Shown here piece after piece: positions 5,987-16,826 of a DNA stretch of 64,000 nt. The notes below the pieces were generated by a model. It searched no databases. It saw only the letters and a list, made by a program, of their open reading frames with translations, and was not told the DNA's origin. Both the position numbers and the translations under genes were made by a program. The number at the start of each line of letters is the position of its first letter. Position 1 is the first letter of the stretch. Origin of the DNA: a bacterium (lineage in GTDB: Bacteria > Planctomycetota > JAFGQW01). The stretch spans positions 1,390,861 through 1,454,860 of the forward strand of contig JAUHXU010000001.1 of NCBI GenBank assembly GCA_030426805.1, read 5' to 3'.

Positions 5987-7000
5987 TTACAGGTCGGACC
6001 AGCGGAACTCCCAGTCGGACTTGCCCATCTTGACCGGCTTGCCGTCCGCTTCGGCGTACGGGAAGACGAAGTAGTTGAGCTTCTCGCCCTTCTGCGGCGG
6101 CGCGAGCGTGATGTCGCGACCGAACGTCAGCGCGACGCGGCTCTCGCCGAGGTGGCCGAAGAACCACTCGGCCTTCGCCGGATCCTTGTCGGCGACCTTG
6201 TCGGCCTCGGAGATGTCGACCGGGCGCCAGTTCGAGCCGTCATGCCAGTGCGCCCAGCAGTGGTAGCTGTTGTAGCTCGTCTTGCCGGCCTTCATCGGGA
6301 TGCCCATCGTGAACCGCACCGGGATCTTCGCGGCGCGGCCGATGCCGATGAAGCGCGCGTGGAAGTCGGTGCAGTTGCCCTTGCACACGGTCACGGCGCG
6401 CTCGAAGTCGCCCGCGCCGTAGCCCGGCACCTTCTTGTTGTATTCCATGCCGTTGAGCACGTCGTCGTAGATCGCCTTGGCACGCTTCTCGAGCGGCGTC
6501 GAGTCGTCGAGCGCCCCGAGGTCGCGCGCCATCGCGAGCGCCTTGCCGTCGACCGGGATCTTCGAGTTCGCCTTGAGGTAGTGCGCGTTCATCGGCAGCG
6601 TGCCCTGCCCACGATCCTCCCAACGCGTGATGTCGGCCGACCACGACATCTTCATCGGCCCGCTCGGGTTCGCGACCTGCACGTAGGCCATCGGATTGCC
6701 GTAGATCGGGTCGGTCGTGACGCGGTGGCCGGGGATGTTGATCGTCAGGTTGTCGACCTTTTGCACGCGGGGATCGTCCTGCGGCAGCGGGATCCACACG
6801 GCGAGCTCGCTCGTGCCCTCGGGAACGGGCACCGTCACCTCGTAGGTGAAATTGAACGCCCGCGACGGCGGGGTCTCGTTCATCGTCGTGTCGTCGTTCG
6901 AGACTTTCGCGCTCGAGTTGTTGGTCTTGGTCTCGCACGCGACGAGTGCGAACGCGGCCGCGACCAGCGCCGCGGCGTACGGAAAGACGGACTTGCGCAT
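5987..7000 (-). CDS. Transglutaminase-like lipoprotein
   Basis: The 337-residue product starts with a lipoprotein signal (MRKSVFPYAAALVAAAFALVAC), so it is probably lipid-anchored through that Cys. The core is a transglutaminase-like domain with a complete Cys-His-Asp triad: Cys in CKGNCTDFHARF, His in YHCWAHWHDG and Asp in WRPVDIS. An N-terminal beta-sandwich-like region (FNFTYEVTVPVPEG...WIPLPQDD) is typical of bacterial transglutaminase-superfamily proteins. Members act as cysteine peptidases or amidases more often than as crosslinkers; the substrate here is unknown. The ATG at 7000 is chosen because it places the lipobox correctly. It is convergent with the M28 peptidase gene. Confidence 0.85.
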   Translation of the reverse strand: MRKSVFPYAAALVAAAFALVACETKTNNSSAKVSNDDTTMNETPPSRAFNFTYEVTVPVPEGTSELAVWIPLPQDDPRVQKVDNLTINIPGHRVTTDPIYGNPMAYVQVANPSGPMKMSWSADITRWEDRGQGTLPMNAHYLKANSKIPVDGKALAMARDLGALDDSTPLEKRAKAIYDDVLNGMEYNKKVPGYGAGDFERAVTVCKGNCTDFHARFIGIGRAAKIPVRFTMGIPMKAGKTSYNSYHCWAHWHDGSNWRPVDISEADKVADKDPAKAEWFFGHLGESRVALTFGRDITLAPPQKGEKLNYFVFPYAEADGKPVKMGKSDWEFRWSDL

Positions 7001-7322
7001 GGTGTTTGGTTCTCGGCAATTGCCCGCACCGACGGAGCCGACCGACTCCGAGAGTTCACCGTCGCGATGGGGAATCGCGGCGGTCAATCCGTGGATACCG
7101 AACGACCATCGCCGGTACCGGCGTCTCGCGCGGCCAGCAGGCATCGGCCGCACCCGTGAGACGTCCATCAAAGAAGGTAGCGCGCTCGCCCCGAACGCGC
7201 CAGGCTCCGCCGCGAGGCGTTACACTTCCGTGACAAGGAAACGCGGCGTCGCCCCTTTTCGTCGCGGCTCGGGCTCGGCATCCTTGGCACCTTCCCGCTC
7301 GATCTCGCAGAGGACCCCGCCG
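7001..7322. other. Divergent intergenic region (transglutaminase / yedE)
   Basis: The region is about 320 bases between divergent genes. TACACT at 7221-7226 could be a -10 element for the plus-strand gene, which would leave a leader of about 90 bases, but I see no convincing -35. AGAGGA lies eight bases before the yedE ATG. No ORF with family support, repeat or RNA structure stood out. Confidence 0.4.
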
Positions 7323-8402
7323 ATGATGCTCCGCCGCGACGGATCCCCCTGGCTCGCCTTCGCCCTCGTCCTGGCCGCCGGCGCCGCGTGCGCGGCCCTC
7401 GTCGCGCTCGGCAACCCCGGCAACATGGGCGTGTGCGGTGCGTGCTTCCTCCGCGACGCGAGCGGCGCACTCGGATTCTTCTCGAGCAAGGGACCGAAGA
7501 TCTTCCGCCCGGAGTTGATGGGCGTCGTCGCGGGCGCGCTCGTGCTCGCGCTCGCGCGCCGCAATTTCGTCGCACGCTCGGGCAGCTACGCCGCCGCGCG
7601 CTTCGGCCTCGGCGTGTTCATGGCGATCGGCGCGCTCGTGTTTCTCGGCTGCCCGTTCCGGATGATGCAGCGCATCGGTGGTGGCGACGTCAGCGCGATG
7701 ATCGGGCTGCTCGGGTTCGTGCCCGGCGTCGGCGTCGCGGTGTGGTTCGAGAAGCGCGGCTACTCGATCGGTCGCACGACCCCGGCCCCGGCGGCACTCG
7801 GCGCGATCGGCCCGGCGTTCTTCGTCGGCCTCACGGCGCTGTTTCTCGGAGGCGTGCTCGTCGGTCCGGGCCCGGGCGTCGGCGGCCCCCCGGCCCACGC
7901 GCCGTGGTTGCAATCGCTCGGCATCGCGACGGCCGTCGGCGCCGTGCTGTCGGTGACCGGCTTCTGCGTCGTGTCCGGCGCGCGCCAGGTGTTCCTCGCA
8001 CCGAAGCGCATGCTCGTCGCGACCGCGTTGCTCGCCGCCGGCTACGCGGCGGTCGCGATGCTCACGGGCCACTTCTCGCTCGGTGTCGCAGGCCAGCCGG
8101 CGGCGCACGGCGACCACGTGTGGAACGTGCTCGCGCTCGTGCTCGTCGGCCTGACCGCCGCGTTCGCGGGCGGCTGCCCGGTCCGCCAACTCGTGATGAC
8201 CGGCGAGGGCAACGGGGACGCGTTCACGACGACGATGGGCGTCCTCGTCGGCGGCGCGCTCGCACACACGCTCGGCCTCGCGTCGTCGGGCGCGGGCACG
8301 ACAAACGCCGGGCGCGTCGCGGTCGTGATCGGCATCGTCGTCGTCGTGGCCTATGCGGCCGCGATCACCGCGCGCCACCGCGCGGACTCGACTGCGTCGT
8401 AG
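7323..8402 (+). CDS. yedE: YedE-family selenium/sulfur-compound membrane transporter
   Basis: This 359-residue polytopic inner-membrane protein of the YeeE/YedE (PF04143) superfamily has about nine hydrophobic segments. The pore cysteine motifs are all present: GVCGACFLRD near the N-terminus, GCPFRMMQRIGGGD, GFCVVSGARQ, and GGCPVRQLVMTGEGNGDA near the C-terminus. YeeE homologues import thiosulfate. The YedE branch with GNxGNMGVCGACFLRD is the one associated with selenium metabolism in selenium-using genomes, which is relevant because a probable selenoprotein gene lies 5.6 kb away. Transport of a selenium species is inference. The ATG at 7323 has AGAGGA upstream at eight bases; a second in-frame ATG follows immediately. 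Confidence 0.85.
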   Translation: MMLRRDGSPWLAFALVLAAGAACAALVALGNPGNMGVCGACFLRDASGALGFFSSKGPKIFRPELMGVVAGALVLALARRNFVARSGSYAAARFGLGVFMAIGALVFLGCPFRMMQRIGGGDVSAMIGLLGFVPGVGVAVWFEKRGYSIGRTTPAPAALGAIGPAFFVGLTALFLGGVLVGPGPGVGGPPAHAPWLQSLGIATAVGAVLSVTGFCVVSGARQVFLAPKRMLVATALLAAGYAAVAMLTGHFSLGVAGQPAAHGDHVWNVLALVLVGLTAAFAGGCPVRQLVMTGEGNGDAFTTTMGVLVGGALAHTLGLASSGAGTTNAGRVAVVIGIVVVVAYAAAITARHRADSTAS

Positions 8403-13980: not shown

Positions 13981-14319
13981 TCAGGCGCGCAGGACCTCGT
14001 CGTAGACCGACTCGGCGAAGCCGACGACCAGGCGGCGGCCGACCCGCAGGGTCGGGGCGCGCAAGTTCCCGGTCGGGCCGAGCAGCGCGCCGAGCACGTC
14101 GTCGCGCGACGCGGCGGCCGGGTCGAGGCGGGTGACCCGCTTGCCCCGGCAGGCGACGATCTCGTCGCACCCCTCGGTGACCGCGAATGCCGCATCCCCC
14201 TCGATACGGTCCTTTCGCGCGTCGACCGTCTCGCGGACGTCGAGGCCGTGGTGCCCGAAAAACTCCCGGGCTCGCGTGCAGCTCGTTCAGCTCGGGCGGT
14301 GGTAGTACCAGTCGATCAT
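13981..14319 (-). CDS. Probable selenoprotein: Spx/ArsC-fold redox protein with UxxC active site (in-frame UGA at codon 11)
   Basis: The frame starts at ATG 14319, behind a very strong Shine-Dalgarno GAGGAGG six bases upstream, and is open to TGA 13981-13983 apart from one in-frame TGA at 14289-14287. If that UGA is read as selenocysteine the product is 112 residues. It begins MIDWYYHRPS-U-TSC-TRAREFF, placing Sec where Spx/ArsC-family proteins have the first Cys of CxxC. Downstream features fit the same fold: an EFFGHHGLDV helix, and near the end LRAPTLRVGRRLVVGF, matching the RxP-(L/I)-v-dgk-vvvGF segment that carries the cis-proline. A hairpin of bacterial SECIS type follows at the right distance. 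Without readthrough the strong ribosome site would make only a 10-residue peptide. A pseudogene or sequencing error are the alternatives. It lies 27 bases after phrB. Confidence 0.82.
14253..14271 (-). promoter_or_regulatory. Candidate bacterial SECIS element
   Basis: On the minus strand a GCCCG/CGGGC stem (14271-14267 with 14257-14253) encloses the 9-base loop GGAGUUUUU. The loop begins 20 bases after the UGA, and its first bases are G. These features agree with the published bacterial SECIS pattern (upper stem of at least four pairs, loop about 16-37 bases from UGA, G among the first loop bases). Two G-U pairs and one A-U pair could extend the stem to leave a GUU apical loop, similar in having loop G and U to the SelB-binding loop of E. 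coli fdhF. SelB recognition is inferred. Confidence 0.65.
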
Positions 14320-14346
14320 CGTGGGCCTCCTCGTCGGTTCGTTCGG

Positions 14347-15795
14347 TCAATCCGCCCCGTCGCCGAGGCGCTTGTAGCTCGCGAGCGCGACGTCGCGGGC
14401 CAGCGCGTGGTCGACGATCGGCTCGGGGTAGTCGTGTCCGAGGCGCACGCCCGCGGCTGCGAGGACGTCGCTCGGGGCCGACCACGGCTCGTGGATCCAC
14501 TTGTCGGGCACATCGGCGAGTTCGGGAACCCAGCGGCGGACGTACGCGCCCGACGCGTCGAAGCGCTCCCCCTGGCGCACCGGGTTGTAGATCCGGAAGA
14601 ACGGCGCGGCATCGGCGCCACACCCGGCCGTCCACTGCCAGCCCATCGTGTTGTTCGCGAGGTCGGCGTCGACGAGCGTGTCCCAGAACCACGCCGCGCC
14701 GCGTTGCCACGGCACGAGCAGGTCCTTGACGAGAAACGACGCGACGACCATGCGCACGCGGTTGTGCATCCAGCCGGTGGCCCACAGCTCGCGCATGCCG
14801 GCATCGACGATCGGGTAGCCCGTCTTCCCGCGCTGCCACGCCGCGAGCCCGGCGTCGTCGTCCCGCCACGGAAACGCCTCGAACTCCGGTCGCAGCGGCT
14901 CCGACTCGGTCTGCGGCTCGTGGTAGAGGAGCGAGTGCGCGAACTCGCGCCACACGAGTTGCCGCAGAAACGGCGTCGCGGCATCCTCGGCGAGGTCTCC
15001 GTTCGTGACCGCGCGCGTGACGTCGTGCCACACGTTGCGCGCCGAGATCTCGCCGAAGTGCAGGTGGGGCGACAGGCGGGAGGTCCCGTAGCGGTCCGGC
15101 TGGTCCCGCTCGTCGTCGTATCGCTCGACGACCCCCTCGCCGATCGCGTGGGACAGCGCACGGCTCGCCCCCGACTCGCCGGGCGTCCACCGATCGGGAA
15201 ACCGAGCCGCCCAGTCGATCGTCGGATCGAAGCCGAGGTCGTCGATCGCGACGGAATCCGGCCACGCCTCCGGCGCGGCGATCGCCCTCGGCGCCGCCGC
15301 GAGTTCGGTCTCGACGCCGACGCGCTGGTAGGCGCGCCACAGCGGGGTGAACACGCGATAGGGCGTCCCGTCGGCCTTGAGCACGTCCCACGGCTCGTGC
15401 AGCAGTCGATCGGCGAACGTGCGAACGGCGAATCCGCGCTCGGTGAGCGCCGCCTTGAGCGCCTTGTCGCGCTCGACGGTGGCCGGCTCGTAGAGGCGGT
15501 TCCAGACGATCGACTCGGCACCGGTCGCGGCGGCCACCGCGGCCAGCTCGGTCGCGACGTCACCGCGGCGCACGATCAGGCGAGAGCCCCGGTCGCGCAG
15601 CGACTCGTCGAGCCGAGCCAGCGACCGGTGGAGCCACCATCGACTCGCGCCGCCGGGCGGCCAGGCGCCCCATTGGGCGTCGTCGTCGATCCACACCGGG
15701 ACGACCGGCCCGTCCGCGTCGACCGCCGCGCGCAGCGCCGGGTTGTCCCGGACGCGAAGGTCGAGACGCAGCCGAACGACGGTCGGTGCGGTCAC
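14347..15795 (-). CDS. phrB: Class I deoxyribodipyrimidine (CPD) photolyase
   Basis: The photolyase splits UV-induced cyclobutane pyrimidine dimers using blue light and reduced FAD. The N-terminal antenna domain begins with TVVRLRLDLRVRDNPAL. The FAD domain contains LSPHLHFGEISARNVWHDV, FLRQLVWREFAHSLLYH, KTGYPIVDAGMRELWATGWM, HNRVRMVVASFLVKDLL and DTLVDADLANNTMGWQWTAG, all canonical for class I enzymes. The product is 482 residues. The start is GTG 15795, overlapping the stop of the upstream SelL-related gene by four bases (GTGA). The proximity of a LitR/CarH-like regulator and the selenoprotein gene suggests a light or oxidative-damage regulon. Confidence 0.95.
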   Translation of the reverse strand: MTAPTVVRLRLDLRVRDNPALRAAVDADGPVVPVWIDDDAQWGAWPPGGASRWWLHRSLARLDESLRDRGSRLIVRRGDVATELAAVAAATGAESIVWNRLYEPATVERDKALKAALTERGFAVRTFADRLLHEPWDVLKADGTPYRVFTPLWRAYQRVGVETELAAAPRAIAAPEAWPDSVAIDDLGFDPTIDWAARFPDRWTPGESGASRALSHAIGEGVVERYDDERDQPDRYGTSRLSPHLHFGEISARNVWHDVTRAVTNGDLAEDAATPFLRQLVWREFAHSLLYHEPQTESEPLRPEFEAFPWRDDDAGLAAWQRGKTGYPIVDAGMRELWATGWMHNRVRMVVASFLVKDLLVPWQRGAAWFWDTLVDADLANNTMGWQWTAGCGADAAPFFRIYNPVRQGERFDASGAYVRRWVPELADVPDKWIHEPWSAPSDVLAAAGVRLGHDYPEPIVDHALARDVALASYKRLGDGAD

Positions 15796-16826
15796 GGGCG
15801 ATCGGCGGGTTCGGGCGTGGCCTGCGGCGCTGCCGGCGCCGGCATCGCGAGCGCGACGTAATCGGGGCAATCGGCCGCGGAGCGATGCACGTATGCCCGG
15901 GTGACGCGTCCGCGCGAGAACAGGAAGACGCCGGGCATCTGATAGCCATCGCCGTCGATCCCGCCCACGCCGAGCCGCTGCAGCACGCCGGCGACGAACC
16001 CGCGCCACCAGACCTTCGGGCCGAACAGCTGGTTGAATCGACCCCGCCGGAGTCCGAACGCCCAGTAGAGCGCCTGGTCGGCGCTGGCGACGAGGTCGAT
16101 GCCGTCGAGGCCATGCTGCCTCGCGTTCGCCTCGGCGACCTCCGGCTCGCTCATGTGCACCAGCACGATCCGGGTGCCGAGCCGCTCGATCCGCGTTCGA
16201 TCGGACCCGAGCGCGGCCATCGCCTCGCGACAGAAGGTGCACCCGGCGTGGCGCAGGAACACGAGCAGGAGCGGTCGGTCGTTCGACAGGTCGAGCAGGC
16301 GCTCGCCGCGATGGGTCATCGCGGTCTGCAGAATCGACTCCTTCATGAACGGGTAGAACCGCCGGATGCACGGCAGTTCGTCACCGTCGCGCCACGCGGC
16401 CCGCAGCACGGCCGCGCACGGCACGGCCCAGCCGACCGAGGCGACGGCCAGCACCGCGGCGATACCCGAAGGGATCGTCCCCGCGACCGCTGCGGCCCCG
16501 AGGACACACGCCGCCCCGACCATGCCCACGACCCCGGTGACCACGACGGGCCAGTGCCGATAGGCGTCGGACGCGGCGGCACCGGCGCCCAGGCCCCACG
16601 CGACGATCAACGCGCCGATGAGACGGACGACCGCGGGCGACGCGCCGTCGAACCCGACCCACCCCGGCACGAGGACGAGCGAAAGCCCGAACAGGCCGTG
16701 CCAGACCGCGGCACTCGCCAGCGCGTAGAACATCCACGCGGGGGCGGGGCGGCTGGGGACGTTCGCGATTGCATTGCCGAACCGGTTCGGCAGCGGCGCG
16801 TGGCGGTCTCGGTTGGGTTCGATCAT
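15792..16826 (-). CDS. Membrane-anchored SelL-related (peroxiredoxin-like) redox protein
   Basis: This 344-residue protein has about four transmembrane helices (residues about 31-53, 66-85, 94-115, 122-142) followed by a soluble thioredoxin-fold domain from about residue 150. The redox site is C196-x-x-C199 in LLLVFLRHAGCTFCREAM, which resembles the Prx-like family containing SelL; there the same positions are a UxxU pair of selenocysteines, here both are Cys. VLVHMSEPEVAEANARQHGL and GPKVWWRGFVAG are also typical of that group. It heads an operon with phrB and the UxxC selenoprotein. Partner and substrate are unknown. It starts divergently from the MerR-B12 regulator. Confidence 0.75.
   Translation of the reverse strand: MIEPNRDRHAPLPNRFGNAIANVPSRPAPAWMFYALASAAVWHGLFGLSLVLVPGWVGFDGASPAVVRLIGALIVAWGLGAGAAASDAYRHWPVVVTGVVGMVGAACVLGAAAVAGTIPSGIAAVLAVASVGWAVPCAAVLRAAWRDGDELPCIRRFYPFMKESILQTAMTHRGERLLDLSNDRPLLLVFLRHAGCTFCREAMAALGSDRTRIERLGTRIVLVHMSEPEVAEANARQHGLDGIDLVASADQALYWAFGLRRGRFNQLFGPKVWWRGFVAGVLQRLGVGGIDGDGYQMPGVFLFSRGRVTRAYVHRSAADCPDYVALAMPAPAAPQATPEPADRP

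Follow-up and report, generated by a model that had tools for sequence, protein, structure and literature searches.

The window analysed here is a 64,000-nucleotide stretch of contig JAUHXU010000001.1 (assembly GCA_030426805.1, positions 1,390,861 to 1,454,860) from a bacterium of the Planctomycetota. Its reverse strand carries at 13981..14319 a gene with an in-frame TGA at codon 11, which is preceded by a Shine-Dalgarno-like sequence and shares its strand with a photolyase-family gene and a SelL-related gene (Table 1). The gene is a new member of a family that is itself already known. With considerable confidence, it is read as a member of the known predicted family NF041106, in which TGA would be translated as selenocysteine (Sec, U) by the genome's own SelA, SelB, SelD and tRNA-Sec with a downstream hairpin as Sec insertion sequence (SECIS), and whose product is likely a thioredoxin-fold thiol-disulfide oxidoreductase.

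Reading frame and family of the gene

The initial annotation of the window described a ribosome-binding site (GAGGAGG) and an ATG that open a frame with TGA as its codon 11, continued by 101 sense codons, and the coordinates 14332-13981 confirm this arrangement. Codons 12-112 stay open past the TGA until a stop TGA at 13983-13981. With TGA taken as U, the product begins MIDWYYHRPSUTSC, and its motif PSUTSC puts the TGA at the place of the first Cys of a CxxC motif, as had been proposed; UTSC aligns with CTSC of Spx. The bare pattern of an early TGA in a long frame is common in the window, which has a guanine-plus-cytosine (GC) content of 69%, where 53 ATG or GTG codons have a TGA in the next 20 codons and then a stretch of 95 or more open codons. 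Coding-like GC values at the third and second codon positions (GC3/GC2) are found in 3 of these 53, and one of the three, the gene at 13981..14319, has a Shine-Dalgarno sequence as well. After the TGA, GC at codon positions 1, 2 and 3 is 0.75, 0.53 and 0.93, resembling the adjacent genes.

Scored with the NCBIfam model NF041106, 'ArsC family (seleno)protein', the protein reaches 122.3 bits (cut-off 85) in a match that spans the TGA (residues 2-106). The query for this score carried the final TGA as an additional C residue, and 114.6 bits are obtained in the genome scan. Pfam ArsC (PF03960) is matched at 28.6 bits, over its gathering cut-off of 24. The window protein resembles NF041106 (ArsC_rel_Se_1) in its whole-length match over the cut-off, its UxxC active site with in-frame TGA, its length and its GPTGNLRAP loop, and no distinguishing feature was found in the window copy. 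The nearest protein, the metagenomic P0002, shares 86% identity across 75% of the query, and with the NF041106 match this bears out that the sequence past codon 11 is kept in homologues. The AlphaFold2 model is a thioredoxin fold with a predicted local distance difference test (pLDDT) value of 96.9, and its nearest structures among the 50 matches listed are Spx and ArsC-related. The model agrees with the previously suggested Spx/ArsC-type fold.

The family has been listed before. 'Arsenate reductase 2, cd03032, UxxC' appears in the 2008 Global Ocean Sampling survey of Zhang and Gladyshev (PMC2398784), with 42 sequences alongside 238 Cys homologues. The initial annotation had likewise mentioned ArsC-like selenoproteins in metagenome surveys. 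An ArsC UxxC entry is found in a 2022 review (PMC9312934), and a 2026 review lists an 'Arsenate reductase-like protein, NF041106, UxxC' with citation of the 2008 paper (PMC13188914), by which NF041106 is tied to 'Arsenate reductase 2'. The same review describes the functions of predicted selenoproteins, as a group, as largely uncharacterised, and no assay of an NF041106-family protein was found in the portions of the literature searched.

Table 1. Features of the gene and its surroundings (positions in the window)
Feature	Position	Strand	Basis or remark
ArsC/Spx-like selenoprotein gene (predicted)	13981..14319	-	NF041106 match; 112 codons and stop TGA (TGA read as U)
Shine-Dalgarno-like GAGGAGG	14326..14332	-	Six bases, then ATG at 14319
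Codon 11, TGA in frame, predicted Sec that opens UxxC	14287..14289	-	TGA there in 76/80 related loci
Codon 14, predicted resolving Cys of UxxC	14278..14280	-	Cys in 30/30 and 80/80 loci
Hairpin, predicted SECIS	14253..14271	-	Stem 14271-14264 with 14260-14253 (8 pairs), loop GTT 14263-14261
DNA photolyase/cryptochrome-family gene	14347..15795	-	Directly upstream, 27 bases off; PF03441 313.7 bits, PF00875 164.6 bits
SelL-related redox protein, Cys form	15792..16826	-	Head of likely operon; NF040769 133.9 bits, cut-off 120
YedE family putative selenium transporter	7374..8402	+	TIGR04112 309.6 bits, cut-off 200

Recurrence and decoding of the TGA codon

Named species genomes were scanned, and the best 80 of 493 related loci, in a ranking whose query had Cys for residue 11, were read at codon 11. 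TGA is present in 76 of them and a Cys codon in 4, so homologues with either residue at this position exist as foreseen. By title or placement, the records holding these 80 loci belong to Planctomycetota, Acidobacteriota, Myxococcota, Binatota, Walliibacteriota, Melainabacteria, Zixiibacteriota and further groups, the organism titles of contigs from metagenome-assembled genomes (MAGs) being taken as written and possibly wrong. The records of Gemmata sp. IIL30 (L076) and Planctomycetes bacterium K23_9 (L066), both with a TGA copy, do not bear a MAG title. The residues on either side of the TGA are conserved among relatives, and Cys14 is present in 30 of 30 loci read without a motif filter and in all 80 loci of a search for R..x..C ahead of GPTGNLRAP. 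Since TGA stands at the same codon in so many of the 80 loci, it is not a sequencing error, and that alternative fails.

A second alternative takes the TGA as a real stop; the frame beyond it would then be a pseudogene, or else another short gene with its own start further down. Gene callers do seem to treat it as a stop: the N-terminal motif is absent in 102 of the 120 database homologues listed (P0002-P0121), and 48 of those begin at residue 12. On the other hand, the TGA keeps its codon position in loci whose titles span many phyla and tracks tRNA-Sec, the hairpin described below is conserved, and conserved residues lie on both sides of the codon, all of which makes a real stop extremely unlikely. 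The short database entries are probably clipped gene calls, and some are perhaps contig-end fragments. Public protein collections thus seem to hold the family mostly without its active-site end, in agreement with the initial annotation, which had expected standard gene callers to drop or truncate the gene.

The host genome (5.58 Mb, 6 contigs, 91% complete) has the genes for Sec decoding. A tRNA-Sec is found at 77.4 bits, with anticodon TCA (ARAGORN). It adjoins selA (482.5 bits), and selB (393.7 bits) is directly followed by selD (368.4 bits), all of them, tRNA-Sec included, over their cut-offs. An objection based on absence of selA, selB, selD or the tRNA-Sec (selC) therefore falls away. Sec machinery has already been reported in planctomycetes (PMC4807772). 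In the selD gene (contig C5, 853822-854748, reverse strand), too, a TGA interrupts the frame, within the active-site stretch SCAGUAGK, by which SelD is a predicted selenoprotein and Sec is predicted elsewhere in the host genome. A genome-wide reading of TGA as another amino acid would account for the open frame and for nothing beyond it. However, the photolyase-family, SelL-related and sucA genes and the selenoprotein gene itself stop at TGA, which counts against such reassignment, and a tRNA-Sec is present; the chance of this reading is vanishingly small.

The link between the codon and its decoding was also followed within the phylum. Of 294 same-phylum genomes drawn, 87 have some match and 63 have a copy over the cut-off, and the 64 copies in those 63 genomes comprise 54 with TGA and 10 without it (9 Cys, 1 Asp). 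In these 63 genomes, with the 24 that have sub-cut-off NF041106 matches alone left out (87 less 63), tRNA-Sec accompanies 51 of 54 TGA copies versus 3 of 10 copies without TGA (Fisher p = 2e-5). This holds for a tRNA-Sec call at E below 1e-10, a threshold set after the values were known; at E 0.001, 293 of the 294 genomes and 14 of 14 controls score. The three TGA-copy genomes without a clear tRNA-Sec (77, 80 and 92% complete) have selB over the cut-off in 3/3 and selA in 2/3. Of the 10 genomes with a non-TGA copy, 6 lack both selA and selB over the cut-off; selB alone is found in one genome, selA alone in another, and the pair in the remaining two. Taken alone, the decoding of codon 11 as Sec is predicted with very high confidence.

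For the comparison of Sec and Cys forms, 144 places were found, of which 130 were distinct and 115 were kept under 90% identity (103 Sec, 12 Cys). The motif filter for these 115 rows called for R/K at residue 8, U/C at 11, C at 14 and the loop G[PS].G.L[RK][AS]P, and column invariance among the rows is therefore partly built in. Copies missed by the filter have GRSG in the loci L164, L158 and L132, and Asp at position 11 in L131. A tree of the 115 members (113 columns) implies 8 changes between Sec and Cys, of which no fewer than 5 follow from well-supported branches. The window copy is a long branch (1.07) whose placement the tree does not fix, and its top identity among the 115 rows is 54%. 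In the sampled genomes the family is mainly TGA-written, in the 80 loci (76) as in the 64 copies over the cut-off (54), with repeated swaps for Cys. Such a family is a usable test bed for Sec retention and loss and for the role of a UxxC ArsC/Spx fold.

The hairpin downstream of codon 11

A hairpin with a G-first loop at SECIS distance had been pointed out in the initial annotation, and it is borne out by the sequence and by its relatives. The stem starts fifteen bases past the TGA, and the 25-nt hairpin piece folds at -11.3 kcal/mol (z -2.59); over 48 nt, the codon-shuffle z of the window's own copy is an unremarkable -0.88. Among the 115 non-redundant members, a qualifying stem was defined by at least 6 pairs, a loop of 3-8 and a centre 20-30 nt after the TGA. 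Of the 103 Sec members 92 have such a stem, versus 1 of the 12 Cys members. Synonymous-codon shuffles that preserve the protein give it in 21.3 of the 103 on average and 29 at most. Moreover, the loop carries GTT in 84 of 103 Sec members, where shuffles give 51.7; among the 12 Cys members it does so in 2. The rows are related, and these counts are not independent events.

The mean folding-energy z against codon shuffles is -1.43 for Sec and -0.70 for Cys members (one-sided p 0.02). The covariation score of the Sec alignment is 0.261 versus 0.133 with partners redealt (0 of 500 as high), and this score and the share of paired cells both peak in the drawn register. By eye, the stem occupies at least three registers across members.

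Predicted function and genomic setting

At the sequence level, the case draws on the open frame, the family match through the TGA, the decoding genes, the recurrence of TGA, the conservation of the hairpin and the exchange of Sec codon and Cys; Sec insertion, SECIS function, redox chemistry, substrate and partner are inferred. The most likely function is that of a Sec/Cys thiol-disulfide oxidoreductase. In the proposed mechanism, the hairpin just downstream of the TGA would act as SECIS, and SelA, SelB, SelD and tRNA-Sec would insert Sec11. The Sec11 selenolate would attack an oxidised substrate, which may be a disulfide, persulfide or peroxide, and Cys14 would resolve the intermediate to form a selenenylsulfide. 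A thioredoxin- or glutaredoxin-type donor would then reduce the selenenylsulfide and regenerate the pair. The Sec/Cys exchange at residue 11 and the retained Cys14 fit such a redox pair.

Several observations weigh against the reading as a Sec-decoded oxidoreductase. The Foldseek template modelling (TM) scores of the best structural matches are only about 0.5-0.57. In the ocean survey (PMC2398784), the 42 Sec and 238 Cys sequences are unlike the Sec majority found here, and most relatives, as drawn there, do not need Sec. The locus L131 (about 6001-6318, reverse strand), an over-cut-off paralogue that stands beside a TGA copy in the same genome, has Asp where Sec would be (SSDATC) and is perhaps a non-redox copy; the database protein P0020 has Leu at position 11 and retains Cys14. 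The sole other genome of the host's own family in the draw, the 90% complete MAG G025, has no match (23.6 bits in the genome scan, below the cut-off), and the distribution of the gene in close relatives is therefore patchy. Regarding the hairpin, the 51-nt fold of the window is unexceptional (z -1.25), and the contrast in folding energy between Sec and Cys members is modest, with 12 Cys rows and related sequences. Two of five pair measures do not beat shuffles (pairs changed on both sides, 131/500 as high; further pair types, 127/500 as high), and 36% of cells are unpaired in the drawn register (64.1% paired). An RNAalifold consensus on the 103 Sec rows has zero pairs, perhaps because the stem occupies several registers, which likewise blurs a pair count in one register. 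The Rfam gathering scan of the window gave no match. Finally, among 99 loci, whose neighbours were called crudely and scored by codon-position GC, no neighbour family keeps a constant position in more than about 4 related loci, and none hints at a substrate.

The Spx of the Bacillus subtilis type shares with the window protein the thioredoxin/ArsC fold and a redox pair of CxxC spacing (CTSC versus UTSC). One alternative is an Spx-like redox switch, in which a Sec11-Cys14 bond formed under oxidative stress would alter how the protein binds a partner, for instance RNA polymerase; its role would then be to regulate and not to reduce a substrate. However, the window protein has a Sec codon for Cys10 and scores 31.4 bits on the Spx/MgsR model TIGR01617, below the cut-off of 75.05. 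Where Spx has the RPI motif described as its identifier (PMC12822559), the window protein has RAPT, and residue 88 is Ala in 113 and Ser in 2 of the 115 rows, which were preselected on Ala/Ser-Pro. The equivalent of Spx Gly52 (RNA polymerase alpha subunit) is Gly in the window protein and in 48 of 115 rows, at a place where the alignment is loose. A switch of this kind is unlikely. Its broader form is equally doubtful: a selenium-based Spx-like stress sensor in planctomycetes and allied bacteria, whose Sec-Cys pair would outpace a dithiol switch with oxidants and would signal by partner binding, perhaps to RNA polymerase, and not by turnover.

A true arsenate reductase with Sec as nucleophile is very unlikely. 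Classical ArsC shares the superfamily fold with the window protein, and an Arg60/Arg94/Arg107 triad has been described as essential (PMC3169414). The arsenate reductase model TIGR00014 is not among the 7 NCBIfam matches of the window protein at E up to 1, and the 2008 survey (PMC2398784) separates the UxxS form, its ArsC 1 selenoprotein, from the UxxC form seen here. Among ArsC-related proteins of the YffB type (1rw1, 2kok), Brucella YffB is described with a single Cys (PMC3169414), whereas the window protein has a Sec/Cys pair. Judged by sequence, the protein thus falls outside both Spx and the arsenate reductases. It may nevertheless work in the manner of one or the other.

To the earlier listings of the family, the present analysis of the oxidoreductase candidate adds support for a SECIS from synonymous shuffles and pair counts, the correlation with tRNA-Sec, a count of how often Sec and Cys were exchanged, and an indication of database clipping.

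A conserved operon was considered and rejected for the 99 loci. The larger clusters, which comprise 6 to 12 loci and by eye include ABC transporters, kinases and sulfatase-like proteins, are scattered in position, and fixed-place clusters reach 4. As no neighbour keeps one place beyond those few kin, the SelL-related, photolyase and yedE setting carries no general functional signal, and an oxidative or light stress setting for the gene is only a local guess. The yedE gene lies on the opposite strand, 5.6 kb from the selenoprotein gene; its coordinates run from the first matched residue of the open reading frame 6846-8402 to the stop, and its start codon is not fixed. The identities given earlier to yedE and the SelL-related gene stand, both being over their cut-offs; the support for selenium use that was drawn from them holds for this locus alone. 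No NCBIfam model is over its cut-off for the photolyase-family gene. A possible start of this gene is the in-frame GTG at 15795-15793, which overlaps the stop codon of the SelL-related gene, and the two may be translationally coupled.
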